The notes under the pieces were generated by a model. It was not told the DNA's origin. It saw only the letters and a program-made list of their open reading frames with translations, and searched no databases. From positions 1 through 64,000 of the forward strand of contig JADFWU010000015.1 in assembly GCA_015234045.1 (NCBI GenBank): 64,000 nt of DNA. Direction: 5' to 3'. This DNA comes from Magnetococcales bacterium. GTDB taxonomy: Bacteria; Pseudomonadota; Magnetococcia; Magnetococcales; JADFWU01. Every line of letters begins with the position of its first letter. Position 1 is the first letter of the stretch. Positions 30,433 to 51,360 of this stretch are shown here, piece by piece. The position numbers were made by a program, and so were the translations under genes.

Positions 30433-30443
30433 TACTATTATGC

Positions 30444-30633: not shown

Positions 30634-30667
30634 TCCCAACTATAAGAAAGAACATTGGAGAAGCGAG

Positions 30668-35080: not shown

Positions 35081-36226
35081 ATGAATGTTCTGTATCGAAC
35101 AATAAAACGTTTTGTTTTCATGGTGCTGATTGTGTTTTTTGCATCAACTGTGACGGTGCATGCTCAAAGTGTGGTTGCTGTGGGCGAAGGTGCAACAAAA
35201 CAGGCGGCCATCAATGATGCGATTCGTGCCGCCGTAGAAAAAGCGTTGGGTGCCTACGTTCAAGCAGACTCAAAAGTGAGTAACGGCAATCTGGAATATG
35301 ACCGCATTATCTCTTCAAGCAGTGGATACGTGCGCGATTATACCGTCCTCAAAGAGGGACATGATCCCATTGAGGAAGCCTACAAGGTTAAACTCCAAGC
35401 TGAAGTTGATGATGTTAAATTGAAAAGCGCTCTGGATGCGTTTCTCAACGATACGCGATTCCAAAAGACTTTCCAAAAGACCAGCTTTGATTCCCGCAAG
35501 GTGGTGGTTTTGTACAAGCGCCGCAGTACTGAAGATCTGGAGTATGACTCCAAGGGTGTTCAGACGGTTATGGATTTAATACAAGATAAATTGGTTGGTT
35601 ACGGTTTCCGGGTGTTTCTTCAGGACCAGTTAAGCCGAATCAAGGATCTGGCTTCAGATGGAATGATCAATGAAAATGATGCGATACGGGTCGCGCAACA
35701 AGAAGATGGTGATGCTGTGGTTTTGGTCAGCATTGATGCCGGCAAACGCAGAACATCGGATGGTTATTATCTGATTCACTCTACATTGGGTATGAAGGCC
35801 TTTGATGTGACCACTGGTGAGTTGTTTGCCAATGTTCAGGATCGTGGCAAAACAGTCAGTCGTGGTGGTGAATACGGCATCTCTGATGGCGTGTCCCGTG
35901 TGGCGATTAAAATTGGTAGTGCTGCGGCTGAAAATCTGGTCAAAAAGATAGTTGAGCGTTTCTCGGGTGCCCGTTCGAAATTCATTACGCTGATTGTCCG
36001 GGATGTTGCATTGGATGTGCAGGATCGAATTGAAGACTTGATTATGGATCTCGGTTGGGAATACCGCATTGGTCGGCAAGCTGGCAGCTATCTGGAGTTA
36101 GAGGTGTTCAGTGAGTCTGATCCAACATCCATCAGAAGTGAGTTTCGCCGTCAAGCGAGGCGGGCAGGGATAGCGCTTCAATCTGTTGGTATGAAGGGCA
36201 GTCGGATTATTTTCTCCAGTCCATAA
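35081..36226 (+). CDS. FlgT-like periplasmic protein, paralogue 1
   Basis: The 381-residue protein has a signal peptide ending near HAQS (about 27). Residues 28-120 form a FlgT-N-like domain: VVAVGEGATKQAAINDAIRA, then AVEKALGAYVQADSKVSNG and YVRDYTVL. A central alpha/beta region (about 140-285, VVVLYKRR ... AVVLVSIDAGKR) is of the TolB-N/CsgG-like type. A C-terminal domain of about 85 residues follows. FlgT in Vibrio builds the flagellar H ring, but no flagellar gene is present here. A second protein with the same three parts is encoded at 42334. ATG 35081 has AGGGAG upstream. It opens the cluster. Confidence 0.7.
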   Translation: MNVLYRTIKRFVFMVLIVFFASTVTVHAQSVVAVGEGATKQAAINDAIRAAVEKALGAYVQADSKVSNGNLEYDRIISSSSGYVRDYTVLKEGHDPIEEAYKVKLQAEVDDVKLKSALDAFLNDTRFQKTFQKTSFDSRKVVVLYKRRSTEDLEYDSKGVQTVMDLIQDKLVGYGFRVFLQDQLSRIKDLASDGMINENDAIRVAQQEDGDAVVLVSIDAGKRRTSDGYYLIHSTLGMKAFDVTTGELFANVQDRGKTVSRGGEYGISDGVSRVAIKIGSAAAENLVKKIVERFSGARSKFITLIVRDVALDVQDRIEDLIMDLGWEYRIGRQAGSYLELEVFSESDPTSIRSEFRRQARRAGIALQSVGMKGSRIIFSSP

Positions 36227-36286
36227 ATTGGCTGTTTATTCTCAGCACGTGAATGTGGTATTGCACGGGTATCTAAGGGGTTTCGT

Positions 36287-37297
36287 ATGACCAGTTGGAA
36301 ATGCATTGAGAAGAAATTGCGGACACCTGCACTGATTATTGCGGTTGGATTTTTGCTGTCTGCCTGTGCCACAGGTGGTTCAACAGTTGCTCCGAAAGGT
36401 GTGGCAGTAAAAGTGTTGCGGCCTGTCACCATGGTCCAGGGGAATACCTGCAATGCGGTGAATCTAATCTGGATTGATCAGGAACGGGTGATTTCATCAG
36501 AAGGAATCTTTCTGAGTGGGGTTGAACGGTCTCAACTGGCTGAGAAAGCGCGTTCTGTTGTCAATGAGACTGGGTTCCTTCAATCCACCAGCCTGCCACC
36601 AGAGTCGGATTCTGTGCGTTACCACACCATGCTGATCAAACTGATCAATATGGATATTGATCAAGCTCAAACCGCTGCACATGCCACAAAGACCGGGCGC
36701 ATTGAATTATCCATCGCCCTGAAGGAAGGGGGCGAGTTGTCTGGCTTTACCGAATGCTATTCAACCGATTTCTCCAAAGAAATCGTTCGGCGTGTACCAA
36801 AATACAAACACAGTCAGTTGCCCAGTGACTTCGATATGAAAAAAATGCTCATCGCTCGAGCTATTCGAAGTGTGTTACGCAAGTTTACACCTGCGCGGGT
36901 ATCTACTTTTCGCCCTGTCTATGGTGGTCTTGGAGAGGCTGCCAAGGTTTCTGATTTATTGAATGGTGGAAATTGTAAACTTGCTTTTAAGGTTGCGCTT
37001 ACTGCTTTGAAGGACAATGAAACAGATCAATCCATGCTCTTCAACGCCGGGGTGGCGGCTGAATGTTTGGCGGGAAAGAGTAGAAAACAACTCGAAAAAA
37101 TTAAAGCGCTAAAGAAATCACTGGAATTTTACGAAAAGGTCTTGATGGCTTCTCCATCCGATAAAGAGGCAAATCGAGCAGCGAAAGAGGTGGCGCAGAC
37201 TCTGGAATTGTATGGTGATGCCGCAAGTAATCAGAGTGACTCTCGTATTAAACTTCAAAAACTGGAGCAGGAGTACTCAACACCATCTGGTTTCTGA
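36287..37297 (+). CDS. Lipoprotein of unknown function
   Basis: The 336-residue protein has a lipoprotein signal with lipobox LSAC (Cys27). The mature part has a beta-rich N-terminal half (about 35-200) and a helical C-terminal part (about 225-325) that looks like TPR-type repeats (AFKVALTALKDNETDQSMLF, then KKSLEFYEKVLMASPSDKEA). The N-terminal half contains three cysteines besides the lipid Cys. I do not recognise the family. It lies 60 bp after the FlgT-like gene and is followed by a GTTACGC-type repeat. Probably an outer-membrane lipoprotein acting with its neighbours. Confidence 0.75.
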   Translation: MTSWKCIEKKLRTPALIIAVGFLLSACATGGSTVAPKGVAVKVLRPVTMVQGNTCNAVNLIWIDQERVISSEGIFLSGVERSQLAEKARSVVNETGFLQSTSLPPESDSVRYHTMLIKLINMDIDQAQTAAHATKTGRIELSIALKEGGELSGFTECYSTDFSKEIVRRVPKYKHSQLPSDFDMKKMLIARAIRSVLRKFTPARVSTFRPVYGGLGEAAKVSDLLNGGNCKLAFKVALTALKDNETDQSMLFNAGVAAECLAGKSRKQLEKIKALKKSLEFYEKVLMASPSDKEANRAAKEVAQTLELYGDAASNQSDSRIKLQKLEQEYSTPSGF

Positions 37298-37307
37298 TAT
37301 CTTAGGC

Positions 37308-37404
37308 GTTACGCAATTGCCGGTTGAAACAGACAGTAAAGTGTCTACCCATCATTCCCGCTTCCTCGGGAATGATGGGTGCAAAATGCATTCAACTGCG
37401 TAAC
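37308..37404. mobile_element. MITE-like repeat, GTTACGC family, copy 2
   Basis: This 97-bp element has ends GTTACGCAATTG (37308) and CAACTGCGTAAC (37393-37404). A perfect internal hairpin, CCCATCATTCCCG / CGGGAATGATGGG, occupies the middle. It lies 10 bp after the lipoprotein stop codon and is the longer version of the element at 38901-38961. Confidence 0.8.
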
Positions 37405-37502
37405 TTTCATATCTATCGAAAATGAGTAATAAACGCGGCATGCCGACACATTTTACAGGTGCCGCTTTGTTTGAAAAATATTTTGTTTAGGAGATCAGTA
37501 TA

Positions 37503-38879
37503 GTGAAAAAAATCAAATATTTAGCAATGGCTGGTGCCTGTGCTTTGATATTGAGTGGTTGTGGTGGTGCTGCGATGCAGATGGCTGGTGGTCTGGCCAG
37601 TGGCATGATGGGTGGTGGCGCACAGAGCAACTCTCTCAAAGGTGTGGAGATGGATTTCACCTTTGTGGATCAGGTAACCTCCATGCTAAGGGTCAACGAA
37701 TTAATGTTGACTCGAATGGAAATATCCAGTGATGCCGAGTGGCCACTGGCGGTGATGCGTCCAGAGGGAGAGGGCGCTGATATCGCAGCATATGATAGTT
37801 GGTTGGAACAGAAGCTGAAAGAAGATTTCAGCTACTTTGAATATTACGGTGAGCTTTCAGGTATGGAGATGCTTGGGGCCATTGGTTCTATGGGACAGAT
37901 GTTTAATACCGCTAAAGATCGAATTCTGACTGAAGCGATTAAATCTGTCGGTATGGATCTTGAGCATCAACGTCAGGTGTTGGACTATCGTCCTGATGGC
38001 TGTGTCAGCCCAGCTTATGGTGGTGCTCAGAGTGCGAGTGAATCTGTCTGTGCTGCGGTGGAAAAAGAGAATAACCGGACAAAACTGTGTGGTTTTTTCA
38101 ACGCGCCTTTGGAAGATCAGCTATTTGAATTTTTGTCCGGTGATCATTCAGCGGCAGACTGGTTGGATACACCGGTGGATGATCTCTGTTTGAGGCCGGT
38201 TACCGCATTGTCTGGTTCAATTCATAAGAATGTTAATGCCGCCTTTATCAGTCTGCTTCCTGAGCATCTCTCAGAGGAGATTCAAGCTGTTGAGTCCAAT
38301 ATCACTGAGATGACTGAACAGAAATCAGATTTGGAAGCGCAGATCAAACAGGCAGAAGCCAGCGAAGAGAATAGCATCAGTGCAGATGAAATTACCGCTC
38401 TGAAACAACAGGTCACAGATCTGGAAGAGCAAATTAAAGCAGGACAAGCCACCTATGCCAAGCTGTTTGAAGAGGCTATGGGTGCTGTTGAAGGAACGGA
38501 CGCTAATGTCGTTTTGGCCCGTCAGGTCCGTCGGGTGATTGGTGCGGTTGATGGCAACCTGTCAATTGCTTCTACGGGTGCTGTCGCAGTAATGGCCAAA
38601 ATGGTCATTGATATGAAGGATCTTGCTAGAGCAGGTCTCGATCCCTTGGGTACGGCGGCTGTTATGGCAGGTGAAGCGGCCGGTAAGAATGAAGCGCTTA
38701 CTGCTGAGGAATTACAACAGAAAATGCAGGAGCGTGTTGAACGTTTGATCAAACGTTCAATCTCCTTCTTGCCCAATGCGTTGGGTATTCTGAATAGGAT
38801 TATGGTGCAACGGGATCTTGTTTCAAGTAAAGTGGAATACCTTGATAAGTTGATCAAGATTGGCGAAAAGCAGGGATAA
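37503..38879 (+). CDS. Lipoprotein with central coiled coil
   Basis: The 458-residue protein has a lipobox LSGC (Cys20) followed by a Gly/Met-rich stretch (AMQMAGGLASGMMGGG). A coiled coil occupies about 258-325 (LEEQIKAG, ESNITEMTEQKSDLEAQI). The C-terminal third is helical. Translation starts at GTG 37503, with AGGAG nine bases upstream. I do not recognise the family; close homologues would be expected only in organisms with the same cluster. It is flanked on both sides by GTTACGC-type repeats. Confidence 0.75.
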   Translation: MKKIKYLAMAGACALILSGCGGAAMQMAGGLASGMMGGGAQSNSLKGVEMDFTFVDQVTSMLRVNELMLTRMEISSDAEWPLAVMRPEGEGADIAAYDSWLEQKLKEDFSYFEYYGELSGMEMLGAIGSMGQMFNTAKDRILTEAIKSVGMDLEHQRQVLDYRPDGCVSPAYGGAQSASESVCAAVEKENNRTKLCGFFNAPLEDQLFEFLSGDHSAADWLDTPVDDLCLRPVTALSGSIHKNVNAAFISLLPEHLSEEIQAVESNITEMTEQKSDLEAQIKQAEASEENSISADEITALKQQVTDLEEQIKAGQATYAKLFEEAMGAVEGTDANVVLARQVRRVIGAVDGNLSIASTGAVAVMAKMVIDMKDLARAGLDPLGTAAVMAGEAAGKNEALTAEELQQKMQERVERLIKRSISFLPNALGILNRIMVQRDLVSSKVEYLDKLIKIGEKQG

Positions 38880-38900
38880 TAGCTTCGGCTTGATGTAGGC

Positions 38901-38961
38901 ATTACGCAGTTGAATGACGGGTACACGCTTTGATATCTGTTTCAAACGGCAATTGCGTAAC
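38901..38961. mobile_element. MITE-like repeat, GTTACGC family, copy 3 (inverted)
   Basis: This 61-bp element, read on the minus strand, starts GTTACGCAATTGCCG and continues TTGAAACAGA, the same as the left end of the copy at 37308. It ends CATTCAACTGCGTAAT. It lacks the internal hairpin of that copy, so it is a deletion form in opposite orientation. Confidence 0.78.
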
Positions 38962-38989
38962 TCCTATGATGATTGATATCGGAGAGTGA

Positions 38990-40225
38990 ATGATGGATAG
39001 ACGGTTTAAGTCTGCAAAAACCTGGTTAAGCAGTATAACAGCCGTGCTGGTCATGGGGTTGTTTCTGAGTGGCTGTCAAGAGAAGCCTAAAGCAGCTGTT
39101 TCCGAAATGGATAATCCCTGGCATCACTATGCTCAGGGTATGGAAGCACTGGATGAAGGCCGTGTGGATCGCGCCTCTGCCAAGTTCAGTCGAGCCATAG
39201 CACTTTCCGAGGATTTTTCACCAGCCCTGGCTGGCCAAAGTCTGATCATGGCCCTTAAGGCCGCTGATCAGGAAGATGCTGGTCACCGCCGTGTTGATTG
39301 GGAAAAAGCGGAAGATCTGCTTGATGCGGCCAGAAGTGCAGCGGATACCGATGCCGATACTTTTATCTACCAAACCACTGCAATTCGTGTTCTGACGGCA
39401 GCCCAACCTGATCGTTGGATTGACAAAGCCCGTATTCACCATGTCAGTGCGCTGGAAGTGGATGATCTAAAAGATACTGATTTGCCTTACTATCAGTACA
39501 AAGCCGCTGCCGATTACTTCATGGCCGAGGCGTGGTTTAAAGCGGACTTCCGTAAAGCACCTCAGTTGTTGACCAAAGTACTGGGAGCGCGCGGAGATGG
39601 TAAATGGCAAGGGCCAGCCGACAAATTGTATCAACGGGTTCAGAAAATCATCCGGGCTTCTGCTGGCCATATGGTGAGCGGTAAAGCGTTGCAGATTGCC
39701 ATCAAAGATTCAGTCACACGTGGGGATGCGGCTGCTCTGTTGGTTGATGAGTTGAAACTCGATAAACTTCTGGCCGGTCGGATTCGGGTTGCTTCAGTTG
39801 AGGCTAATCGTAAAGCTGAATACACACCGGCTGATGTGTTGAATCATCCGTTCCGTGATGAAATCAGCACCATGATGAAGTGGCGTGTTCGTGGACTTGA
39901 GCCTAACTATGATGAGTCCACACGTGCTTGGCTGTTTAAACCACAGGACTCCGTTCCTCGGAAAGATCTGGCTTTGGCCTTAGAGGATGTGCTGATTGGT
40001 CTAACAAAGGATCAGGGCATTGCAACAGCTCATATCGGAGCAGAACGTTCGCCCTATCCTGATGTTTCTCCTAATCTGCCTTGGTTTAATGCGTGTATGA
40101 CCTCGGTCACACGGGGATTGATGCAGTTGGGATTGTCCGGTGAGTTTCGTCCTGATGAGCCGGTCAGTGGTGCTGATCTTCTATTGGCTGTTTTTAAACT
40201 GCGCAGCGTAATGAACATTCACTGA
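38990..40225 (+). CDS. Lipoprotein with TPR-like region and SLH-like C terminus
   Basis: The 411-residue protein has a lipobox LSGC (Cys29). TPR-like helices occupy about 40-215 (WHHYAQGMEALDEGRVDRAS, then AKFSRAIALSEDFSPALAGQ). The last ~100 residues resemble an S-layer-homology module: RKDLALALEDVLIGL, SPYPDVSPNLPWFNACM, GEFRPDEPVSGADLLLAVFK. SLH modules bind cell-wall-linked polymers. GGAG lies just before two overlapping ATG codons (38990 and 38993). It is the fourth gene of the cluster. Function is inferred only as envelope scaffold. Confidence 0.72.
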   Translation: MMDRRFKSAKTWLSSITAVLVMGLFLSGCQEKPKAAVSEMDNPWHHYAQGMEALDEGRVDRASAKFSRAIALSEDFSPALAGQSLIMALKAADQEDAGHRRVDWEKAEDLLDAARSAADTDADTFIYQTTAIRVLTAAQPDRWIDKARIHHVSALEVDDLKDTDLPYYQYKAAADYFMAEAWFKADFRKAPQLLTKVLGARGDGKWQGPADKLYQRVQKIIRASAGHMVSGKALQIAIKDSVTRGDAAALLVDELKLDKLLAGRIRVASVEANRKAEYTPADVLNHPFRDEISTMMKWRVRGLEPNYDESTRAWLFKPQDSVPRKDLALALEDVLIGLTKDQGIATAHIGAERSPYPDVSPNLPWFNACMTSVTRGLMQLGLSGEFRPDEPVSGADLLLAVFKLRSVMNIH

Positions 40226-40325
40226 GATTGGGGCTGAGTGATGCATCGGTTTTGTATCTATTGATGGCGTGCTCAAAGATAGATGGATTGCAAGCATACT
40301 TTGAAAAAATGGAACTGAGGGGGAT

Positions 40326-42329
40326 ATGGTGAAGCCAGACCAAATGAATCATAAAAAAGGCATGTGGTTGAGTGGATTGCTCATGCTGATGGCCTTGGTG
40401 TTTGCTGCCTGTGCGCCTGTGGAAGAGTTTGCCAAACGTGCGGATCAGATGGAAGCGCGTGGCCAATATTCATCAGCAGTCCGGGAGTTGCAAAAAGGGT
40501 TGAAAGAAGCGCCTGGCAATCCGCTACTCACCAAGTCCATGCAGCGTATTAAAACCAACTGGGCTAATCACACATTGGGTGAAGCGCGTTCTGCTTCCCG
40601 AGATATGGACCAATCCCTTGCTCGGCGTCTTAAAGCAGGTCTGACACTCGCCAAACAGGCAAAAAATATTGCTGATACAGCGGCAATCTCCTCTTTCATC
40701 ACCAAGATGGAAGCGGAGCTAAAATCAATCAGCGATCGACAGAGAAAGTGTATTGAAGCGGGCAATGAAGCGCTGAAAAATGAGAGCGTCATTGATGCCG
40801 CACGTACTACGTTGCGCCGCTGTATTGAGGAGGATCCAGACAATAGTGAGGTGCAGGACCTTTCTGCAAAGGTTAACCGCCGTTGGGGTGACAAGGTCTA
40901 TATGGAGGCCGATGAAGCCCTGAAAAAAGGTCAGGAAGAGCTGGCTTTGATGCTGATTGATCGTCTATTGAAAGTGGATGCCAAATATCCTGGTGCTGTT
41001 TTGCTCCGCAAACAGGCAGATGGTGCCGCAACTGCCCGGCGTCGCCTTGTTAAGGTGCGTTCTTTCATGGAAGAAGGGGCTTCACTGCGTGCTCTGGAGG
41101 CCTATCGTAGCATTGATCCCAACAATGTCCGGGTCAATGAAAGTTTGGCGGTGGAGATGGATAGCATCGTTGAACAGTTGGGTAATACGCTTCTGCGTCA
41201 AGCACGTGATTTGATGGCGACGCGCCGTTTGGGTAAAGCCATGTTGCGTTTAGAAGGAGCTGTGGATGTTTTGCCCAGTGTGCGGTTTACACCAGAGGCT
41301 GAGTCAATCATTCGGAAACTGGAAAATCGTGCATTGTCGTTTCAAGATGAAGGGCTACTGGGTAATGCCTATTATGCTTTTCTGAAGTTGAAAAAAATTG
41401 CTCAGTGGGGTGGACGCAATCGGGATGTGATGGATGAACTTCATCATCAACTGCGTGAACGCAACATCGTGACTATCAGTTTGGTTGATTTCGGTACGCC
41501 ATCCAATGAACCAGATGCAGGCACCTATTTCACTTCTCAGCTGACCAATATGCTTTTTGAGCGTCGTGAATCTGATCTGAAAATCGTTGAACGTGAGCGG
41601 ATCAAGGATGTCATCAAGGAACTTCAGCTGGACACCAGTGGTATGACCAGTATGGAGAGTGCCAAGAAGATTGGTCATATCCAAGGTATTGACTACTTCA
41701 TCTTTGGCAATGTGGTGGAGTATCAGGTAGAAACCGTTGATCAACCAACACAGCGAACCGTAAAAGTGGAAGTGGGACGCAGAAAAATTCCCAACCCTGC
41801 ATTCCAGACCTTTATTCTGATGAATCCCAATACCTGGCAGGAGATGATGCGTCAGGGTGTGGCACCTCAAAAGACCATTGAAGAGGCGCAGCATCAGCTC
41901 ATTCAGTTCCAGGAGGGCACGATTGCCAAGCGTACTACCGGCAATCTCTATATGCGTATCATTGAGGTCGAACGGGGTGATATTTTTACCACTCGTGCGT
42001 TTAAGAAAAAGCACGAAGAGTCGGACCACTATTCCGATGGGGTTGGATTGGCGAATATCCAGGCTGATCCCAAGGAAATTGCCAGTGATAAAGCGATGCT
42101 GGGTAAAATTTCCAAAGAGATTCTGGATGAAGCATCCTCCTTTGTGCTCGACCTGTTTGCCGACCGCGAAACGTCCAAATCAACCACAGCGGCTAATCTG
42201 GTAAAGCAGGGTGATATGCTTTCTGCGGTTGAGAAGTGGGTGGATGCATGGATGATTGCTGAAACAAAGAAAAAAGAGGTTAAACCATTTGTTCAGGGTG
42301 CAACTGACGCAGTCCTGGAAGCGTGGTAG
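40326..42329 (+). CDS. CsgG-domain lipoprotein with N-terminal TPR-like region
   Basis: The 667-residue lipoprotein has lipobox FAAC (Cys29). Residues 35-345 are helical repeats of TPR type. Residues about 375-600 form a CsgG-like domain: IVTISLVDFGTPSNEPDAGT, FTSQLTNMLFERRESDLKIV, and the IDYFIFGNVVEYQVE strand, followed by a KRTTGNLYMRIIEVERGDIF strand pair. CsgG forms the outer-membrane channel for curli subunits; related proteins (HfaB, FlgO) anchor other surface structures. It is much larger than CsgG (about 277 residues) because of the N-terminal repeats. No csgA/B/E/F genes occur here. The next gene starts four bases after its stop. Confidence 0.82.
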   Translation: MVKPDQMNHKKGMWLSGLLMLMALVFAACAPVEEFAKRADQMEARGQYSSAVRELQKGLKEAPGNPLLTKSMQRIKTNWANHTLGEARSASRDMDQSLARRLKAGLTLAKQAKNIADTAAISSFITKMEAELKSISDRQRKCIEAGNEALKNESVIDAARTTLRRCIEEDPDNSEVQDLSAKVNRRWGDKVYMEADEALKKGQEELALMLIDRLLKVDAKYPGAVLLRKQADGAATARRRLVKVRSFMEEGASLRALEAYRSIDPNNVRVNESLAVEMDSIVEQLGNTLLRQARDLMATRRLGKAMLRLEGAVDVLPSVRFTPEAESIIRKLENRALSFQDEGLLGNAYYAFLKLKKIAQWGGRNRDVMDELHHQLRERNIVTISLVDFGTPSNEPDAGTYFTSQLTNMLFERRESDLKIVERERIKDVIKELQLDTSGMTSMESAKKIGHIQGIDYFIFGNVVEYQVETVDQPTQRTVKVEVGRRKIPNPAFQTFILMNPNTWQEMMRQGVAPQKTIEEAQHQLIQFQEGTIAKRTTGNLYMRIIEVERGDIFTTRAFKKKHEESDHYSDGVGLANIQADPKEIASDKAMLGKISKEILDEASSFVLDLFADRETSKSTTAANLVKQGDMLSAVEKWVDAWMIAETKKKEVKPFVQGATDAVLEAW

Positions 42330-42333
42330 CGTT

Positions 42334-43458
42334 ATGCGACAACTTATTGCTCTGTTTTTCTGTTTGTCGCTGATAGGTATCGTGGCACCTGACACTGGAA
42401 TGGCTCAGGAGCTTGTTGTCACTGGTATGGCTGATCTTGAAGAGTTTCGGGATCGTGGTCGTGCGCGGGATGAAGCGCTGAAGGATGCATTGGTCAAAGC
42501 AGTTGAACAGGGACTTGGGGTTCAGATTCAGGCCGAATCCCAGGTTTCAAATGGTATGCTTGGTCGGGATGATGTGTTGTCTCGCACTGGTGGTTTTGTC
42601 AAATCACATCAAATCATTCGGGAGTGGGTTGATTCAGATCTGTTTTATGTCAAAGTTAAGGTTCTCTTACAAAAAGGGAGTGTTGCTGACGACAAACAGG
42701 GAAAAGGGATGGTTAAACAGTGCCAGCACCGTCCACGGATGGTATTGATAGTTGACGGGGCGGAGCGTGCTCAGACGCGAGAGATGGAAGGTGTGTTTTT
42801 TCGCGCTTTGAAGAAACAGGGCTTTCCGAGTGTCGATCCGGAAGTTGTGCGCTCATCTCTGGCCCGTCAAGCTGCTGCGATGGATGTGGCAGGTTATGAA
42901 AAAGCAGGGCGTTCAGTGGCGCTTCAGTATGGTGGTGAAGTATTGGTGAAGGTTGCTGTTGAAAGTCAACAGCAGGGTGGTGGAAGCTACGGTGATATGA
43001 AACTGCCGGGCACTGTACGTTCAATCATTACTGCTCGTGCCGTTCGTGTTGATTCTGGTGAAGTGATCGCCAGTGCGGATGATGCCATCTCAGGTGGCGC
43101 GCGGCGTATGAGTAGCTCAGCACGACGTATGGCAAATAAGATTGCCCAGAAGTTGGGCAATTCCATCTGGAAAAGTTGGCAGTCTCAGTGTTATGACAAA
43201 GATGTCCTGACCTTGATATTGACTGGCAAAGATGTGTGTGCCAAATCTCTACAGTTTGGTCAGTATATCAAAGATAAGATGCGCGGCGTAAAAGCCATGC
43301 ATATCAGAGCTTGTTTAGGCGCAAGTGCCACGGTCGAATTAGAGTATCAAGGCAAGCCGCAGGCATTTATAACAAAGCTGAAATCCATGCGCGGTTTACC
43401 GAATCGTTATTCTCTGGTCGGCTTTACTGCCAATCAGGTATCATTGGAATTGAAGTAA
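42334..43458 (+). CDS. FlgT-like periplasmic protein, paralogue 2
   Basis: The 374-residue protein has a signal peptide (about 1-24, ending MAQE) and the same three-part layout as the protein encoded at 35081: an N-terminal domain (VVTGMADLEEFRDRGRARDE, ALKDALVKAVEQGLGVQIQA, VSNGMLG, GGFVKSHQII), a central alpha/beta region (about 130-290) and an ~85-residue C-terminal domain (TLILTGKDVC ... NQVSLELK). The frame is open from 42256, but ATG 42334 gives the signal peptide. It follows the CsgG-type gene by four bases, so the two are very likely co-translated. Confidence 0.7.
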   Translation: MRQLIALFFCLSLIGIVAPDTGMAQELVVTGMADLEEFRDRGRARDEALKDALVKAVEQGLGVQIQAESQVSNGMLGRDDVLSRTGGFVKSHQIIREWVDSDLFYVKVKVLLQKGSVADDKQGKGMVKQCQHRPRMVLIVDGAERAQTREMEGVFFRALKKQGFPSVDPEVVRSSLARQAAAMDVAGYEKAGRSVALQYGGEVLVKVAVESQQQGGGSYGDMKLPGTVRSIITARAVRVDSGEVIASADDAISGGARRMSSSARRMANKIAQKLGNSIWKSWQSQCYDKDVLTLILTGKDVCAKSLQFGQYIKDKMRGVKAMHIRACLGASATVELEYQGKPQAFITKLKSMRGLPNRYSLVGFTANQVSLELK

Positions 43459-43513
43459 GGCGAATTCGGGATTTATAAATAACCGCCAAGTGACACAAAC
43501 AAAGGGTGGATTG

Positions 43514-44389
43514 ATGAAACAACGGATTAGTTCGAAATGGGCAACAGTGGGCACCATGATGGTTGCTCTGTTTGGTTGGTTTGCCTTGGCTGGAGGGCTA
43601 CAGGCAAACACGGATGGTGAAGGGTTTGAGACCATCTCCGATCAGTTTGATATCTTCAATAAAGGCTATATCCAAGTAGTCGGATATTCTGAAGCTGGTC
43701 AGAGCCGATTTCGTGCGGTACGTGCTGCAACGGTTGTGGCACAACGTGATATTTTGGAAATATTCAAAGGCGTTGCCGTTGATGGTGAGACCACCGTCAA
43801 TGATGGTATGCTCGAAAGTGATGTCATTCGGACTCGAGTGAGTGGATTTTTGCGCGGTGCTCAGAAATGTGGTGTTCGTTACGATGCCCGTGAGCGCTAT
43901 GCGGAAGTGTGTTTGCGTCTCTACATGCACGGTGAAAAAGGGGCATACAAAGCCATTCTTCCTACACTTCAGGAACAGGGAATGGTGCAACAAGGTATGA
44001 GTGGTGGTATCCAAAACGTGAACAGTGCGCCAGCTGTTTCCAGTGAGCCTGAGTTTGATGGCTTGGTTATAGAAATGGCTGGAAAGAACTTCAAGCCTGC
44101 CATTGTTAATCGGATTCTTGCGGACAATGGTAACGTGATTTTTGATCCGTCCAAAATCGTCAATGCCATTCTGATAGAGCGTGGCTGTGGTGGGTTTACC
44201 AATAAAGTGGACAAAGCTAAAGGTCTGCTCGCCTCCTGGGGTGTTAAAAAGCCTTTGATTGTCAAAGCGCATGACACCAATAAGGGCACAGATGTGATTG
44301 TGACTTCGAGCCATGCTGCTTCTATTACTGCATCGGACCAGGTCAGCAGTTATCTGTCACAAGCCAAAGTAGTGTTCGTGGTTAACTGA
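43514..44389 (+). CDS. LPP20/FlgP-like exported protein, paralogue 1
   Basis: The 291-residue protein has a signal peptide (about 1-28). Residues about 45-150 form an LPP20-like domain: VVGYSEAGQSRFRAVRAATV, ILEIFKGVAVDGETTVNDGM and SDVIRTRVSGFLRGA. A C-terminal domain (about 180-291) begins FDGLVIEMAGKNFKPAIVNR and ends SQAKVVFVV. The protein at 50341 has the same two-part layout. No lipobox is seen, unlike typical FlgP. Vibrio FlgP is part of the flagellar H ring, but here the context is the CsgG-type cluster. Confidence 0.72.
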   Translation: MKQRISSKWATVGTMMVALFGWFALAGGLQANTDGEGFETISDQFDIFNKGYIQVVGYSEAGQSRFRAVRAATVVAQRDILEIFKGVAVDGETTVNDGMLESDVIRTRVSGFLRGAQKCGVRYDARERYAEVCLRLYMHGEKGAYKAILPTLQEQGMVQQGMSGGIQNVNSAPAVSSEPEFDGLVIEMAGKNFKPAIVNRILADNGNVIFDPSKIVNAILIERGCGGFTNKVDKAKGLLASWGVKKPLIVKAHDTNKGTDVIVTSSHAASITASDQVSSYLSQAKVVFVVN

Positions 44390-44416
44390 TTGACCTGAGT
44401 TACGTGCAATAAGCAC

Positions 44417-44491
44417 GTGCCCTTTTCTGTGCCTTGCTGAGAGACCAATATTCTGCGTGACTGGGACAATCAATTTTTTCGAGGTCCTGAA
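44417..44491. repeat. Dispersed motif (family 3), copy 3
   Basis: GTGCCCTTTTCTGTGCC, GAGACCAATATTCTGCG and GGGACAATCAATTTTTTCG, then AGGTCCTGAA, align with 34046-34120. It lies in the gap between the LPP20-like gene and the next gene, just ahead of the terminator at 44544. Confidence 0.5.
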
Positions 44492-44518
44492 AAGGCGCTC
44501 TATTATGGTGGATCTGTA

Positions 44519-46294
44519 ATGATCAGAAGGCAGTCAAATATAGGGATACCCGGCTATTGTCCGGGTATCCTTTTTTGGCATTGTGTCACTGTTTATCGGT
44601 GTACAGCCTTAATTTTTTTTATTTCTGCATTTATTGCTGCATCACTGCTTGCTCCATCACTGGCTCAGGCGGACTCTGATGTAACTGACTCTTATGCGTT
44701 CCAATCCCTTGAAAGACCAGTAAGTGCTTTACGGCGGCGTGAACCGCTTATTTCTCAGTTTATCAATATCAAGAGTGAAAAGTTATTGATGCGTGGCAAA
44801 GTGGTTATCCGCTCGCTGCGTCCTTTGTATGTTGAAGTGGTACTGAGTCAAACAAGTGGTCAACCCTGGGATATTTTGCAAAAAATATCGTCTTGGGTAA
44901 CTTTGCCTACCAAGGACTTATTGTGGCTTCAATCAATTCCTGAAATTACAGCGCGAAATGTTCATCTGGTGTTTTCCAATGTACATGGGCGTTTTTATAT
45001 GGAGTGGCTCTCTGCGCAGCGGATTGATATATCTCAAGGGTGGTTGGATCAGGTCCGTGCCAGGGTTTTGGATGGATTGGGGCGCTGGAGTCTTCAGTGG
45101 CAGAAAGGTTGGTTGTCGTCTCTACCAGTGGGTGAAGGATTCTGGAAAGGGGTGCGTGATCTCTCCAGTGAGTGGGTTACACTTTCGGGTGAGGGGGGTG
45201 ATCAACTTCAGATTCAAGCGCAAAAATTGGATATGGCCGGCATGACAGTGAATGGACTGATGGGACGGCTTCAGCGATTGGACCATATTAACCGTCAGCG
45301 GCATTGGCAACTCTATTCCAGCACTGTTGATTTTATTCTGGATAAGTTGCATTCCCATTTGAGAAGTACGCCTGCAATTTGGCAGTATATGCAAGTTCAT
45401 TTGGCTCAACAGGGTGTTGATGATCAGATGATTTTTTCAGGTCAGGCCAGGGTGGATAAAGTGCGCCTCTCCTGTCAGATGTCCGACCAGGATCAACCGT
45501 TGTGGTCTACGCTTTCCTTGAATGGTCATGCGGCGTTGACGCATGTGAACCTGAAGTCAACGCCGGATGGTGTGCGATTACTTGAAATACCGGCTCTGAC
45601 CTTTGATCTTACTCGGCAACAGGATGGACAGTGGCAGCTTGCTAATTCTCAAGGCGTTTTTGAGCATCAGGGTGGTCGTTTAAAGGTCAAGTCCTTGGAT
45701 CTTACATGGCCGAAGATCTCCTCGGTAAGTCGCGGACAAGTTGAAGCGGTAGCTTGGCCTGTTGGTCAATGGCGGCTAAATGGCAGTTTGGGGGGAGATC
45801 GTGCCAGCGGAATTGATTTTGAAGGTCGATTCACTCTTAATAGTCTGCCCGGTCAACTCAGATTAACCGGTCGGGTAACGGCGCAGGAGGGTATCGCGGA
45901 AGATGCTGCTCTGGTGCGGCTCTATCAATTGGACTTGCCACTCTGGAGTGTGCAGCAGCAAAATGTTCATACCATGCTGCATCTATCCAGAGATATCAAT
46001 ACGCCGGTACAAATGGAGATTGATCAGCTTCAGGTAGAAGGTCAAACCGTATTGAACCAAATCCTAATGCGTGTAATCAACAAGGATACTTCTTCTCTGC
46101 CTGAGAGCAGTCTCATTGCCTTTTGGCAGGGGGGGGATAAGTGCGGTCAAGCTTGGCAAGGTGGCGCACGTTTTTCGTCGGATATGGCATCCTGGTGGAT
46201 GATTGATGATAAGGATGAGGGTATGCACAACGGATTGTCACAGTTGGTGTCTGGTTGTTCACAACAGGTCATACTGGGAGAGTCTATCCAGTGA
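44519..46294 (+). CDS. Large secreted protein of unknown function
   Basis: The 591-residue protein has a long N-terminal region and a hydrophobic signal core ending SLAQADS (about 52). The rest is predicted beta-rich, with no membrane segments, and resembles the loose pattern of AsmA/TamB-type envelope proteins, but no firm match can be made. The start at ATG 44519 follows GGTGGATC. A textbook terminator (44544-44576) lies inside the first 20 codons, so either transcription reads through or the true start differs. No better in-frame start exists before the signal core. It overlaps the SpoIID-like gene by four bases. Confidence 0.65.
   Translation: MIRRQSNIGIPGYCPGILFWHCVTVYRCTALIFFISAFIAASLLAPSLAQADSDVTDSYAFQSLERPVSALRRREPLISQFINIKSEKLLMRGKVVIRSLRPLYVEVVLSQTSGQPWDILQKISSWVTLPTKDLLWLQSIPEITARNVHLVFSNVHGRFYMEWLSAQRIDISQGWLDQVRARVLDGLGRWSLQWQKGWLSSLPVGEGFWKGVRDLSSEWVTLSGEGGDQLQIQAQKLDMAGMTVNGLMGRLQRLDHINRQRHWQLYSSTVDFILDKLHSHLRSTPAIWQYMQVHLAQQGVDDQMIFSGQARVDKVRLSCQMSDQDQPLWSTLSLNGHAALTHVNLKSTPDGVRLLEIPALTFDLTRQQDGQWQLANSQGVFEHQGGRLKVKSLDLTWPKISSVSRGQVEAVAWPVGQWRLNGSLGGDRASGIDFEGRFTLNSLPGQLRLTGRVTAQEGIAEDAALVRLYQLDLPLWSVQQQNVHTMLHLSRDINTPVQMEIDQLQVEGQTVLNQILMRVINKDTSSLPESSLIAFWQGGDKCGQAWQGGARFSSDMASWWMIDDKDEGMHNGLSQLVSGCSQQVILGESIQ
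44544..44576 (+). terminator. Intrinsic terminator inside the start of a coding region
   Basis: GGATACCCGG (44544-44553) and CCGGGTATCC (44561-44570) form a perfect 10-bp stem with a 7-base loop, followed by TTTTTT (44571-44576). It lies 25 bases after the proposed ATG of the 44519 gene. It could end the upstream half of the cluster or act as an attenuator. Confidence 0.85.
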
Positions 46295-48312
46295 GAGTCA
46301 GAAGGAGTAGGCCGCTTTATTCTCTCTCTGTTGTGATCTCTATGCTGATGATCATGGTGACCCCGCTTGCTTCGTTTGGTCAGACAGTATCACTGGTCAA
46401 GCATAATCTTAAGAGTGATGCTGTTTATTTTGAGGATGTCGGACAGTATCTCGAAGCGCTTGTCGCTTATGATCATATGTACCGATTCAATGAAGTGCCT
46501 GAAAAAAAAGTCCGAGCGTTGATGGAACGTGCCCGAATATTGGCTGTTTATCTGGATGCTCCTGAGGCCTCGCGCAAGGTGTATCAGAAGATTCGCCGGG
46601 AATTTCCTTCTCGCGCTGGTCAAGCTTGGTACGCTGAAGGACGGTTATTGGTCGAAATGGAGCGCTGGAATGACGCGCAGACACTGTTGAGTGAATATCG
46701 CAAGCAGTTGCCAAATGATCTCTATGCGTTTCATGCTCAATATTTAATGACTGTTGCTGAACAACGGCGAAGCAAAGCCAATAATACACCGGTAACTGGC
46801 GTTGTATCGAACAACGCACCATCCTCAGAACAGAAGCCGGAAAAACAGTCTGTAGATGCATCTAAAAAAAAGACCACTGACGAACCGATTTCTCAACAAA
46901 CCAAGACCCCGATAGAAAACAGCAAAGAGGCAGTCAAACAGCAAGAGACCATTACGGAAAAAGCTGTAATTATCCCACCGGATATCGATTCGGTGTCGGA
47001 CGGTGATGCTCTTGTAGAAAGCGGTTTACCGGATATTGATTCAGTACCGGATGATGTGCCATTACCCATTCCGTTGCCCAAAAGGCGTTTACCACATGTT
47101 CAGCCAAACAGTGATGTGATTGTTCCATCCGTTCCTACGGATGCAGCCGCCAAAGAAGGTGCTGGTGGTCCAGCAGTGAAGGACCAGAAAGCTTTTTACT
47201 ATCAAATGTCCGAGGTTGAAGAGCCTACTGTACGCATACTCCTGCTTCGAAAATCACCACTGCTTCAGTTAGTAGCAAAAGGGCTGCAATTTTATCAAAA
47301 TGGTGAATTAGTTTGGCAAGGCACCCAGGCGGTTGTCAAAGTCATTCATGGTCGGCTGGTTTTGACTGGAGGTTGGCAGTATCCCAATGAACCAGCGCCA
47401 GCTTGGGCAGGCCCTATTCAGGTAAAAGCTGAGGAACCGATCCGTGTGGTCAGTGGTTCCGGTAATAGAAAAAGTGTGCGTGGTACAGTGTGGTTGGCGG
47501 TCCGTGATGAGCGGATACGAGTGATCAATCATGTGGGTATCGAATCCTATCTACGCGGTGTCATGCCGGTATCCTCTCAAGGCAGCTGGCCTGCTGAGGC
47601 ATTGAAAGCACAAGCCATAGCGGCTCGGACATTTGCTTACTTTCAAATTCGTCACCGTATCCACCTGGAATATGATATGGTGGATCAGCATGGAGAACAG
47701 GGATATGGCGGTGTCGGACGTGAAGTTGCGCCCGCTGATGCGGCTGTAGCGGAAACACGCGGGCGTATTCTTGTGTTGACTCAAGGTGTGGGTGCTGGCA
47801 TGCCCATCTACGCGAAATCGACCACCAATAATGGTGGTCGCAGTGCAGACTCTGGTGACCTATTCACCTTTTCGTTGCCCTATCTGGTTTTTCAGAACGA
47901 TCCCTGGAGCGAAAAAGGTAAAATGGTTTCATGGCAACGCAGATATGCCCTGGCGGATGTCGGACAATATCTGGTCAATAGAGGTGTTGTCGGAGCTGAA
48001 GAATTGGTTGGATTCAGAAGTGATCGTGTCAGCCGTTCAGGGAGAATGTTGACTGCCACTGCCGTGATGAAAGGTAGAAAAACAACCGTGCCGACTCAGT
48101 TTTTCCTGATGGGAGATTTGAAATTACCCAGCATGTTGACCACTGTGCAAGATAAGGGTGAATATGTTGTGTTCCAAGGTTATGGTTTTGGTCATGGGCT
48201 TGGTTACTCGAAGTGGGGCGGTGTTGTGATGGCCAAGGTACTTAAAAGCGTTTTTGGTCGTATCCTGGCATTTTATTATCCTGGCACATCGTTGGCTCAA
48301 GCATGGCACTAG
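46291..48312 (+). CDS. SpoIID/LytB-domain protein with TPR-like N terminus, catalytic Glu missing
   Basis: The 673-residue protein has a signal peptide (about 1-30), TPR-like helices (about 45-165), a low-complexity Pro/Ser/Thr linker (about 170-300) and a SpoIID-type domain (about 310-670). Domain features are GIESYLRGVMP, SWPAEALKAQAIAARTFAYF, YAKSTTNNGGRSADSGDLFT and GFGHGLGYSKWGG. SpoIID is a lytic transglycosylase whose essential Glu sits in an 'SEMP' motif; here the position is Ser428 (PVSSQGSW). Peptidoglycan binding without cleavage is likely. It starts at GTG 46291, with GGGAGAG upstream, overlapping the previous gene by GTGA. Confidence 0.82.
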   Translation: MRVRRSRPLYSLSVVISMLMIMVTPLASFGQTVSLVKHNLKSDAVYFEDVGQYLEALVAYDHMYRFNEVPEKKVRALMERARILAVYLDAPEASRKVYQKIRREFPSRAGQAWYAEGRLLVEMERWNDAQTLLSEYRKQLPNDLYAFHAQYLMTVAEQRRSKANNTPVTGVVSNNAPSSEQKPEKQSVDASKKKTTDEPISQQTKTPIENSKEAVKQQETITEKAVIIPPDIDSVSDGDALVESGLPDIDSVPDDVPLPIPLPKRRLPHVQPNSDVIVPSVPTDAAAKEGAGGPAVKDQKAFYYQMSEVEEPTVRILLLRKSPLLQLVAKGLQFYQNGELVWQGTQAVVKVIHGRLVLTGGWQYPNEPAPAWAGPIQVKAEEPIRVVSGSGNRKSVRGTVWLAVRDERIRVINHVGIESYLRGVMPVSSQGSWPAEALKAQAIAARTFAYFQIRHRIHLEYDMVDQHGEQGYGGVGREVAPADAAVAETRGRILVLTQGVGAGMPIYAKSTTNNGGRSADSGDLFTFSLPYLVFQNDPWSEKGKMVSWQRRYALADVGQYLVNRGVVGAEELVGFRSDRVSRSGRMLTATAVMKGRKTTVPTQFFLMGDLKLPSMLTTVQDKGEYVVFQGYGFGHGLGYSKWGGVVMAKVLKSVFGRILAFYYPGTSLAQAWH

Positions 48313-48397
48313 CCGTGAGTTACTGATTGATTTTGTTTTATATGTTTACTCGACCGTTTCCACAGGGGAGCAGACGGTTATTAGGGAGGAATTGCCC

Positions 48398-50299
48398 ATG
48401 AAGAAGTCTATTTTTTTTAGAAAGCCACAGATTTGGCTATTGGGTGGTCTGGTTGTGACAGCCCTTTTAACCGGCTGTGTTGCAGCGACCAAGACCGCCG
48501 TCGTCGGTGGTCCGGCTTTTACCACCAATATTGGTGAGACCGAATCGTCTGTAGATCGGGCGGGTCTACCCGCAACAGTAGCCTTTCTGCCCTTTGTCAA
48601 TGGTACCGATGCTGATCGGGCTTTTGAGATTGTACGTCGTACGATGTCCAGTCATTTTTCAGGCAAGAACTATCGGATGATGCATATTCGGGAAGTGGAT
48701 CGCCGTCTGAGAGCTGCCAAGTTGACAGATCCTGCTGAAATTGCCAAGAGACCAGCACATGAAATTGCCGGTATTCTGGGTGTCGATGGTTTGATGTATG
48801 GCACAATCACCCATTATGACAAGCTGTTTTTGCTCACCTATGCACAAGTGGCTGTGGGTGTGGAAATGCGTTTGGTAAATCTGAAAGGTAAAGAAATCTG
48901 GAATGGCAATCAGGTAAGCCGGAAGCATGAGGGCGGTGTGGCTACCACACCGGTGGGCTTGATTCTCAATGCTGCTTTTGCGGCTTGGCACATCAAGGAT
49001 GATGCCAATCTGTTCCGTGCGGCTGATGAGTTGGGCCGTGAACTGATGGGTACTATTCCAGAACCAAAAGCGATTGCCGGTGCTAAGCGTCCGCGTATCA
49101 TGCAGGTTGTTCATGATGGAATGGGCAAAATCCTCAAGTTTGGTGATTCTCTTTCTATAGCAGTTGAGGCTGAGCCGGGTCTTAAAGCTGCTTATGCTCG
49201 TGTGGATGGTCTGGGTTTGGTTGATCTGGTAGAAACGGAAAAGGGCTTCTACACAGCTAAAGTAGATATCAAGCCCAAGGATAATGTAAAGGCAGCCGCT
49301 GTTGTGGCTGTGGTTGAAAATGAAGAAGGCACTATGGTTGAACGTGTTTCACCGCTTGGCGTGGTGAATGTAGACAATATTCCACCAGAGCCAGTGACCG
49401 AGTTGAAAGTAGAAGGTAGAGATGATGGCTTGGTAGTCAGCTGGACATCGTCAAAATCGGAAGATCTCAAAGAGTATAAGATCGGTATCTCCGATGTGCC
49501 TCAAGGACCATTTGCTGAGTTGGCTAAAATCGGTGAAAGTCGCTATACCCATAAATCACCCAATTTCAAAGTTGTTCATGTTGAAGTGATTCCCGTAGAT
49601 CAGGCAGGTAATGTGGGACAAGCGGTTACTGTCGCTGGTCGTGCTGTACCTGATCCACGATTTGATACGGCTGCGTTGTTGCCGCGTATCGTGCCTGCTC
49701 GTATTACCGCTACTTCAGTTATGACTCGGGAAAACAGTCCCTATACCATCAATGCGCCTGTTGAATTGGCCAATACTGGTGTATTGCTGATCGAGCCAGG
49801 TGTTGCCATCCATTTGGAGCGTAAAACCGGTATCACAGTGCAAGGTGAGTTGCAGATATTTGGTACGCAGACCACACCGGTTACTGTGGCTGGTGTGAAT
49901 AACGGCTCATATACCACCTTTTTGCGTCTGGACAGTACATTGCCGGTATCTATTCGTGGTTTGAGAAGTTCCGGTGGTGATCTGCCTATTGTCATTACCG
50001 CTGGTGCGCCGATGATTCTGGACAGTCAGCTACTCAACAACACATACAGTGCGTTGGAAATCGGTGGCAGTAGTCGTCCGGTGATCCGTGGTTGCGAGAT
50101 TCGTGGTAGCAACGCGGCTGGTGTAGTTGTGAAAGAGCAGGCTCAGCCGCAGTTTACCGGTAATAACTTTGCTGAAAATAGCCCGTTTCATATCCAAAGC
50201 AGTTCACCCTATAAGCTGAATGCCCGTGACAACAGTTGGACACCAAAAGCAACCAACATCACTGTGCTTGGCAATGTGGACTTCAAACAATCCAAGTAA
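48398..50299 (+). CDS. GNA1162-like lipoprotein fused to beta-sandwich and beta-helix regions
   Basis: The 633-residue lipoprotein has lipobox LTGC (Cys27). Residues about 45-230 resemble GNA1162/DUF799: TVAFLPFVNGTDADRAFEIV, REVDRRLRAAKLTDPAEIAK, ILGVDGLMYGTITHYDKLFL and LVNLKGKEIWNGN. A region of beta-sandwich character follows (about 245-430, including fibronectin-III-like EPVTELKVEGRDDGLVVSWT). The last part (about 450-625) looks like a right-handed beta-helix, with repeated 'NTGVLLIEPG', 'TGITVQGELQIFG' type rungs. GNA1162 proteins normally end after the first domain. AGGGAGGAA precedes ATG 48398. The gene is in the 3' half of the cluster. Confidence 0.78.
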   Translation: MKKSIFFRKPQIWLLGGLVVTALLTGCVAATKTAVVGGPAFTTNIGETESSVDRAGLPATVAFLPFVNGTDADRAFEIVRRTMSSHFSGKNYRMMHIREVDRRLRAAKLTDPAEIAKRPAHEIAGILGVDGLMYGTITHYDKLFLLTYAQVAVGVEMRLVNLKGKEIWNGNQVSRKHEGGVATTPVGLILNAAFAAWHIKDDANLFRAADELGRELMGTIPEPKAIAGAKRPRIMQVVHDGMGKILKFGDSLSIAVEAEPGLKAAYARVDGLGLVDLVETEKGFYTAKVDIKPKDNVKAAAVVAVVENEEGTMVERVSPLGVVNVDNIPPEPVTELKVEGRDDGLVVSWTSSKSEDLKEYKIGISDVPQGPFAELAKIGESRYTHKSPNFKVVHVEVIPVDQAGNVGQAVTVAGRAVPDPRFDTAALLPRIVPARITATSVMTRENSPYTINAPVELANTGVLLIEPGVAIHLERKTGITVQGELQIFGTQTTPVTVAGVNNGSYTTFLRLDSTLPVSIRGLRSSGGDLPIVITAGAPMILDSQLLNNTYSALEIGGSSRPVIRGCEIRGSNAAGVVVKEQAQPQFTGNNFAENSPFHIQSSSPYKLNARDNSWTPKATNITVLGNVDFKQSK

Positions 50300-50340
50300 A
50301 CAGGCGTGCTTTTCACGGTTAAGTTTAGAGGGAGACGGTC

Positions 50341-51360
50341 ATGAGTGACCATACGGGATTAATAAAGAAAATTCTATCTGTCAGCACTCTGGTACTGATG
50401 ACGGCTCTGCCGGTAACCGGTTGGAGTCAGGGACCGGGCGAAGTGGTGGAGTGGAGTGGTTCAGCGGGTGCAGTAAACTGGACACGTGGCCGTGTGATGG
50501 CTGAAGGTAACGGCATGGGCAAGCGCAAAGGCCCGTCTCGGCTTGTGGCTGCTCAGGCGTGTCGTGCTGCGGTTGTGGATGCACAGCGTAATTTGTTGGA
50601 GACGGTCAAAGGTGTTCGTGTCGAGGGTGAAACTGTTGTCGAAAATATGATGCTCACCAGCGATGTGATTAAGTCATCAGTCAGCGGTGTGGTGCGTGGT
50701 GCGGTGGTTAAAAATCGGGAAGTGTTCCCTGATGAAGGGGCCTGTACCGTGACCATGGAAATGCCGATGGAAGGCTCTTTTGCTTCTGGAATTTTTCAGA
50801 ACATGCCCGATTCGCCTCAAGCCAATATGCGACCTGGAATATCGGACTGGAAACAGTGGGTAAGCTATGGACTGGATTGGTTGATTCGCCCAGCCCATGC
50901 CGCATCATCGGTTGGTGCGCCGTGGCAGAGCCAGATGAATCAGCTTATGGAGCGCTTGGAACGGTTGGAAAAAGTTGTACAAGCCCAGGCAGCAGGTAAT
51001 CAGTCCAAACAGAAACGCAGTGGCAGTCCTACCGGATTGGTGATTGATGCACGTGGGACAAACTTTATTCCCAGCTTGTCGCCTAAAGTCCGCCAATTAC
51101 GTGCTGGTATTCTCTACCCGACCCCAAGAAAACGCGAACAACAGCGTCAGGGTGAACTGGTTTCTCTGTTTATGAAAGACTTGGTTCTAGCACAGAATCA
51201 TCCACGAGTTGGTGATCGGCCTTTGGTACTCAAAGGACTCAAGACTTGGGGCAAGTATCGCACTGAAATTGTCTTGGGAACTGACTCCTCAAAAGAGTTG
51301 ACTGCACTGATTCAAAAAAATTTCCTTGCTGAAGCCGGTGTGATTATCGTTCTGGATTGA
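50341..51360 (+). CDS. LPP20/FlgP-like exported protein, paralogue 2
   Basis: The 339-residue protein has a signal peptide (about 1-29, ending GWSQ). An LPP20-like domain spans about 45-145 (VNWTRGRVMAEGNGMG, RAAVVDAQRNLLETVKGVRV, EGETVVENMMLTSDVIKSS, VSGVVRGAVV). A linker with a short coiled coil (about 195-225) leads to a C-terminal domain that begins TGLVIDARGTNFIPSLSPKV and ends AGVIIVLD, matching the C-terminal domain of the protein at 43514. It is the last gene of the cluster, and its 3' end overlaps the convergent gene by 17 bp. Confidence 0.72.
   Translation: MSDHTGLIKKILSVSTLVLMTALPVTGWSQGPGEVVEWSGSAGAVNWTRGRVMAEGNGMGKRKGPSRLVAAQACRAAVVDAQRNLLETVKGVRVEGETVVENMMLTSDVIKSSVSGVVRGAVVKNREVFPDEGACTVTMEMPMEGSFASGIFQNMPDSPQANMRPGISDWKQWVSYGLDWLIRPAHAASSVGAPWQSQMNQLMERLERLEKVVQAQAAGNQSKQKRSGSPTGLVIDARGTNFIPSLSPKVRQLRAGILYPTPRKREQQRQGELVSLFMKDLVLAQNHPRVGDRPLVLKGLKTWGKYRTEIVLGTDSSKELTALIQKNFLAEAGVIIVLD

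Follow-up and report, generated by a model that had tools for sequence, protein, structure and literature searches.

An exported-protein cluster with FlgP-type and PelC-like domains in a Magnetococcales bacterium: probably a previously undescribed ring or docking machine of the outer membrane

Do eleven neighbouring genes that all code for exported proteins build one envelope machine, and if so, of which kind? The question is raised by a stretch of 64,000 nucleotides from a Magnetococcales bacterium (contig JADFWU010000015.1, positions 1 to 64,000; below, the window), in which eleven plus-strand open reading frames follow one another from 35081 to 51360 (g1–g11). The source is a magnetotactic-type bacterium, whose genome (G000) comprises 117 contigs and 3.65 Mb. 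A sequence-only reading had proposed for all eleven a single outer-membrane and periplasmic assembly, perhaps for secretion or anchoring, that is neither curli nor a flagellum; the run of consecutive exported genes on which it was built was confirmed, every frame being present where it had been placed. We conclude that the cluster probably encodes a previously undescribed ring or docking machine of the outer membrane, because its core is also present in unrelated bacteria, at times in genomes where flagellar ring genes were not detected, and in many cases lies within a lipid-transport operon. The core genes in the window are as follows.

38990–40225, plus strand: g4, TPR-like lipoprotein with a C-terminal SLH domain, 411 residues (SLH E = 7.5e-6, over cut-off)
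43514–44389, plus strand: g7, exported FlgP/LPP20-type protein, 291 residues (profile A2 matches FlgP chains)
46342–48312, plus strand: g9, SpoIID/LytB-domain protein with a TPR-like N-terminus (SpoIID E = 1.1e-20; SpoIID_LytB E = 1.1e-39)
48398–50299, plus strand: g10, lipoprotein with a GNA1162/PelC-type domain, two FN3 domains and a right-handed beta-helix, 633 residues (GNA1162-like E = 6.3e-12; Beta_helix E = 1.6e-6)
50341–51360, plus strand: g11, exported FlgP/LPP20-type protein with an extra C-terminal domain, 339 residues (follows g10; FlgP matches)

That g4, g7, g9, g10 and g11, with a FlgT-type gene, form the core of one system is supported by a neighbourhood that recurs in Magnetococcales, Mariprofundales, Gammaproteobacteria and Desulfobacterales. 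Three genomes of family f8 hold g4, g7, g10 and g11 together, and two of the three have g9 placed between g7 and g10; in a fourth the core parts are split over two contigs, and G005 has two partial copies. The f8 orthologues of g4 (51–53% identical) and of g7 (about 50–55%) adjoin each other, and in a genome from another family of the phylum (G048) g4, g7, a FlgT-type gene, FecR, a CHASE2-cyclase and a SpoIID gene stand in one run. The same neighbourhood contains g9 in G005, G022, G030 and G048 (in the window, g9 scores 74.4 bits for SpoIID against a cut-off of 23, and 137 for SpoIID_LytB against 83.3). G048, Mariprofundales and Desulfobacterales also have relatives of g4; of the five tested, three exceed the SLH cut-off and two match SLH weakly. 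Wall hydrolases recur near the core: they are of SpoIID type in Magnetococcales and in G048, and Mariprofundales and one gammaproteobacterial locus have an MltC-type enzyme.

A collection scan for g10 returned at least 23 loci from Magnetococcales, Mariprofundus/Mariprofundales, Gammaproteobacteria and Desulfobacterales, a carrier count to be read as a lower bound, since the scan relies on two short seed patterns and the loci come mostly from metagenome-assembled genomes. Wherever the gene after a close g10 was visible it was g11-type (26/26 loci); this partner is missing beside the divergent g10 of G002 and beside a second, often FHA-linked g10 type. Of 398 genomes drawn from the phylum, 19 matched g10 with E no higher than 1e-20, and the window's order accounts for 13 of these. 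The g10 tree grouped the gammaproteobacterial copies with full support and the Magnetococcales copies with moderate support, with no sign of recent transfer between the two classes. Comparison with the G005 copies gave ratios of nonsynonymous to synonymous substitution of about 0.10 for g10 (0.143/1.46) and about 0.07 for g11 (0.158/2.23), that is, purifying selection on both. The co-occurrence check proposed with the sequence-only reading was thereby run, and in place of homologues scattered without a conserved neighbourhood it returned a core recurring in four lineages, so that the idea of one system survived. The single assembly stands for the co-located core, for which ring formation at the outer membrane is plausible; it does not extend to all eleven genes as a unit, g2 and g3 being without homologues in the loci and genomes searched and g5 having only partial relatives.

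The second g9-g10-g11 copy of G005 (locus L031, contig C327) adjoins genes resembling an argS-like gene of the window and its neighbour (61055–63468), which lie about 10 kb downstream of the cluster. The second, divergent g10 type stands beside FHA-domain genes in several of six Magnetococcales loci (L037, L038, L040, L042, L045, L046); RND efflux genes occur in two loci of this type and an AsmA gene in one.

The ring character was addressed through four proteins, the core members g7 and g11 and the following two.

35081–36226, plus strand: g1, exported FlgT_N/FlgP-type protein, 381 residues (FlgT_N E = 1.2e-3, sub-cut-off; LipL46 N-domain E = 3.3e-7)
42334–43458, plus strand: g6, exported FlgT_N/FlgP-type protein, about 375 residues (FlgT_N 27.1 bits, cut-off 28.8; LipL46 E = 1.3e-11)

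Profile A8, built from g1, g6 and their relatives, matched Campylobacter jejuni FlgP (9hmf_C) at E = 2e-8, and profile A2, built from relatives of g7 and g11, matched the FlgP chains of the solved disks 9hmf, 9yec, 8z5n and 9yfg at E 2.6e-9 to 2.7e-8, both alignments being gapless across the long helix and the hairpin segment that follows it. In FlgP, the hairpin insert after the long helix, within an SHS2-type domain, builds the rings (PMC12222027), and in the profile alignments, which compare sequences only, this ring-forming beta-hairpin is matched by both the g7/g11 and the g1/g6 families. Because of this gapless match through the hairpin segment, all four are, on their profiles, better named FlgP-type than FlgT- or LPP20-like. 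The sequence-only reading had counted two FlgT-like and two LPP20-like proteins: the relatedness it saw is there, but the families lie below the Pfam cut-offs (FlgT_N in g1 and g6, LPP20 in g7 and g11) and FlgP-type fits better; FlgT_C had no match in the G000 genome. Ring formation by these proteins in the present cluster is plausible, given their FlgP-type character.

What such rings might hold is suggested by g10 and by the genes that precede it in relatives. The AlphaFold2 model of g10 has a predicted local distance difference test (pLDDT) score of 81; its N-domain is close to GNA1162 and PelC (VIA-align Z 14.6 and 13.4, respectively), the model matches the Vibrio LPHT ring chain 8z5n_0 with Z 12.4, and its C-terminus is close to the pectate lyases PelI/Pel3 (Z about 15). 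PelC is a structural homologue of PqiC, the octameric toroidal outer-membrane lipoprotein ring of the system (PqiABC) of the MCE protein PqiB (PMC10897342); PqiC was not among the matches listed in the g10 fold search, which carries no weight. In all 11 gammaproteobacterial loci MlaE-MlaF-MlaD precede g10-g11-FlgT, the full order being a TPR gene, sometimes a second TPR gene, MlaE, MlaF, MlaD, g10, g11 and a FlgT_N/DUF4384-type gene; the genes directly upstream of g10 match MlaE at E = 1.8e-36 and MlaD at E = 1e-5. The placement of a lipoprotein of PqiC/PelC-type fold (g10) after an MCE gene is confined to these gammaproteobacterial loci. Since MCE genes precede g10 in relatives, its N-domain is near PelC and PelC is homologous to PqiC, g10 appears to occupy the place of a PqiC-like docking lipoprotein. 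Both gammaproteobacterial genomes checked carry a further MlaD on another contig, and the g10-linked MlaE-MlaF-MlaD is therefore an additional MCE system in those two genomes; in the Magnetococcales genome G043 a divergent g10 adjoins a separate MlaE-ATPase-MlaD set. The secretion role suggested earlier misses this MCE/MlaE lipid-transport operon, the strongest signal in the neighbourhood.

The MlaF of these operons (L078:8305-8961 and its equivalents in L079, L084–L086 and L088–L093) has G or A in place of the Walker A lysine in 11/11 and LNDVQ in place of the signature LSGGQ in 11/11, with Walker B retained; judged by its motifs it is a conserved pseudo-ATPase. An MlaF-like match in L094 was discarded: its motifs are intact, and it is an ABC ATPase of no relation to this MlaF.

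We tentatively read the core as a non-flagellar ring or disk, anchored to the outer membrane and to peptidoglycan, that docks a trans-envelope MCE-like lipid conduit, a serious possibility that falls short of being probable. The FlgP-type domains (g1, g6, g7, g11) would polymerise into rings beneath the outer membrane, and g10, with its PelC/PqiC-like ring domain, FN3 spacers and beta-helix, would be the central docking collar, which the TPR and SLH parts of g4 would fasten to peptidoglycan; g9 (SpoIID) would open or trim glycan strands so that the assembly spans the wall. Through putative contacts among these proteins the collar would dock a conduit with lipid as its presumed cargo, in the gammaproteobacterial version the co-operonic MlaE-MlaF-MlaD with its dead ATPase. 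Since the window's cluster has no MCE gene, we infer rather than observe a conduit in its organism; it may be supplied by a standard MCE system encoded at another place in the genome, or it could be g8.

44519–46294, plus strand: g8, protein with an N-terminal membrane helix and a beta-rich domain, 591 residues (AlphaFold2 confident only about residues 71–280)

Several points weigh against the lipid-conduit reading. The loss of the Walker A lysine and signature motif, as read from the MlaF motifs, speaks against ATP-driven transport. Neither the window cluster nor the loci of family f8 contain an MCE, MlaE or MlaF gene, and the MCE genes of G000 lie only on other contigs (a standard MlaD on C54, a three-MCE PqiB-like gene on C106). 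An AsmA/TamB-like identity of g8 is not established: sequence searches gave no AsmA family match, profile comparison with AsmA/TamB gave a probability of 0.3, and the best Foldseek match, TamB at E = 0.06, rests on a low-confidence model, so that the TamB/apoB-like similarity is only suggestive. The N-domain of g8 is homologous to short proteins in 35/48 Magnetococcales genomes, of which several are encoded next to degP, and a g8 relative adjoins g10 in G002.

Ranked next after the lipid conduit, on account of the dead MlaF and of recurrent FecR, CHASE2-cyclase and caspase/CHAT neighbours, is a scaffold and sensing module without cargo, in which rings and SLH/TPR lipoproteins would tether the outer membrane to peptidoglycan and signal envelope strain to FecR, the CHASE2-cyclase and caspase/CHAT proteins. 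FecR genes are neighbours of the core in family f8, in G048 and in Mariprofundales and Desulfobacterales, the CHASE2-cyclase is found in G017 and G048, and caspase (C14)/CHAT genes stand beside the core in Mariprofundus and in some gammaproteobacterial loci (L070:3-4568, L070:11101-13371, L078:1905-4649); a dead MlaF is compatible with something other than a pump. However, FecR, CHASE2 and caspase genes are all missing from the window's own cluster, and MlaE and MlaD, needless for a pure tether, are kept in 11/11 gammaproteobacterial loci. We regard this explanation as credible and somewhat unlikely.

An export portal for polysaccharide or protein, in which the PelC-like ring, the TPR lipoproteins and the pectate-lyase-like beta-helix of g10 would guide an exopolymer as in Pel or alginate export, draws on the structural proximity of g10 to PelC and PelI/Pel3 given above and on the TPR and CsgG-type lipoproteins of the cluster, the latter represented by g5.

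40344–42329, plus strand: g5, TPR and CsgG/LpoB-type lipoprotein, 661 residues (CsgG E = 6.3e-8; LpoB E = 0.0068)

The CsgG match of g5 is limited to profile positions 33–105 of 210, a stretch also matched by LpoB, and the CsgG outer-membrane pore of the sequence-only reading is for these reasons a weak claim; the relatives of g5 are partial only, one of them lying directly behind DctP in G018 (E = 3.3e-32). Neither in the cluster nor repeatedly beside the core was a glycosyltransferase, a polymerase or a PelB/AlgE-like barrel recognised, and MCE genes would not be expected of a portal, which we consider unlikely. A second locus in G000 (L130, contig C81, 5586–11692) has a FlgT_N-type gene and two CsgG-domain genes; a FecR there was not used, its 19-bit score coming from a private profile and Pfam giving no confirmation.

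An accessory of the flagellar motor, an H-ring or basal disk encoded apart from the other flagellar genes, would account for the match of the FlgP-type domains to flagellar disks and for FlgH in 21/28 searched genomes, nearly all of them core-gene carriers. G000 itself carries FlgH and FlgI on contig C29, so that the earlier statement that no flagellar gene is present holds within the window but not genome-wide. The g7/g11 profile is, however, absent from 40/48 Magnetococcales genomes, of which G007 and G002 were tested and both are FlgH-positive; FlgH and FlgI were not found in G048 (98% complete), nor in four gammaproteobacterial carriers (L078, L079, L085, L091; genome completeness not established); and no flagellar gene was recognised beside the core in the loci read. 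Because of the 40 genomes without the profile and the carriers without FlgH/FlgI, g7 and g11 are not the Magnetococcales flagellar disk, an H-ring identity is rejected on these distributions, and a motor accessory is very improbable. Curli are likewise rejected, the genome having no CsgF (CsgA, CsgB and CsgE were not part of the search). The earlier judgement that the cluster is neither curli nor a flagellum thus holds, given the missing CsgF and a distribution uncoupled from FlgH/FlgI.

That eleven unrelated exported proteins are neighbours by chance, as the lack of clear orthologues of g1–g3, g5 and g8 common to distant loci might suggest, is the most improbable explanation, refuted for the core by its recurrence in four lineages under purifying selection; it may still hold for g2 and g3.

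The five genes g1–g3, g5 and g8 are lineage-specific or local additions. The two not yet described, and the end of the cluster, are as follows.

36287–37297, plus strand: g2, lipoprotein, 336 residues (lipobox LSAC; no Pfam family over cut-off)
37503–38879, plus strand: g3, lipoprotein with a coiled-coil segment, 458 residues (lipobox LSGC)
51445–51464, plus strand: terminator-like hairpin followed by a T run, 85 bp past the end of g11 (consensus match only)

No homologue of g2 was found in any fetched locus, and none of g3 among 47 other Magnetococcales genomes. The genes of the cluster are spaced by 4 to 205 bp, with a single overlap, present or absent according to which start is taken for g9. 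Lipobox cysteines were located in g2 (C27), g3 (C20), g4 (C29), g5 (C23) and g10 (C27), and a signal-like or anchor helix without lipobox at the N-terminus of g1, g6, g7, g8, g9 and g11. A crude hydrophobicity count flagged 16 of the 50 reading frames of at least 150 residues in the window as export-like, 9 of the 16 inside the g1–g11 block; g1 and g10 are absent from this count because the scanner picked a too-early start. Pfam matches over cut-off were SLH (g4), CsgG (g5), SpoIID (g9), and GNA1162 and Beta_helix (g10). Promoter-like sites showed no excess (20 versus 22.3 in shuffles) and were not used.

Upstream of the cluster, degP and DctP lie at 29074–31771, and in several other Magnetococcales (L036, L043, L100, L104, L107) one or other of these two genes borders a gene of the g8, g10 or g5 type; given this recurrent adjacency, the locus may be an old site of variable content. 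The segment 32000–36000 has a G+C fraction of 0.424 versus 0.476 and holds a sulfotransferase-like reading frame and one weakly similar to a phage single-stranded-DNA-annealing protein (E 0.0023).

A bolder form of the lipid-conduit reading, distinctly doubtful at present, is that a FlgP-type concentric disk outside the flagellum gives an MCE lipid conduit that works without ATP its platform at the outer membrane, and that this machine has a common ancestry with the flagellar disks of Vibrio and of Campylobacter. Should the cluster be a docking machine of the kind proposed, ring parts seen as flagellar accessories would have a second role in an envelope assembly of its own, a point of relevance to the origin of the disks in flagellar motors. 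The question of how some MCE lipid systems are docked to the outer membrane would gain an answer open to testing, and one MCE operon would be known that is retained with a conserved dead ATPase. No paper describing this gene combination was found in a search that excluded most subscription journals.

Among known systems, the Leptospira lipoproteins LipL46/LipL21 are resembled by g1 and g6 through LipL46 (E 3.3e-7 and 1.3e-11), but with scores far under the 400-bit equivalog cut-off. Curli secretion shares a CsgG-family domain with g5, whereas the match is partial and the genome lacks CsgF. With PelBC exopolysaccharide export the cluster has in common a PelC-like lipoprotein domain and TPR lipoproteins, while no PelB barrel or polysaccharide synthase was recognised near it. 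PqiABC and other MCE systems with a ring lipoprotein (PqiC, the XCC0632 operon) are paralleled by the gammaproteobacterial MlaE-MlaF-MlaD followed by a lipoprotein with a PelC-like N-domain; the differences are the FN3 and beta-helix additions of g10, the FlgP-type partners after it, the degenerate MlaF and, in the window, a cluster without an MCE gene. The flagellar basal disk and H-ring (FlgP, FlgT; Campylobacter, Vibrio) share the FlgP-type ring domain with its hairpin insert and the use of exported or lipid-anchored outer-membrane proteins, whereas the present cluster is unlinked to flagellar genes, occurs in genomes without detectable FlgH/FlgI, adds C-terminal domains to g7 and g11, and has g4, g9 and g10 as companions.

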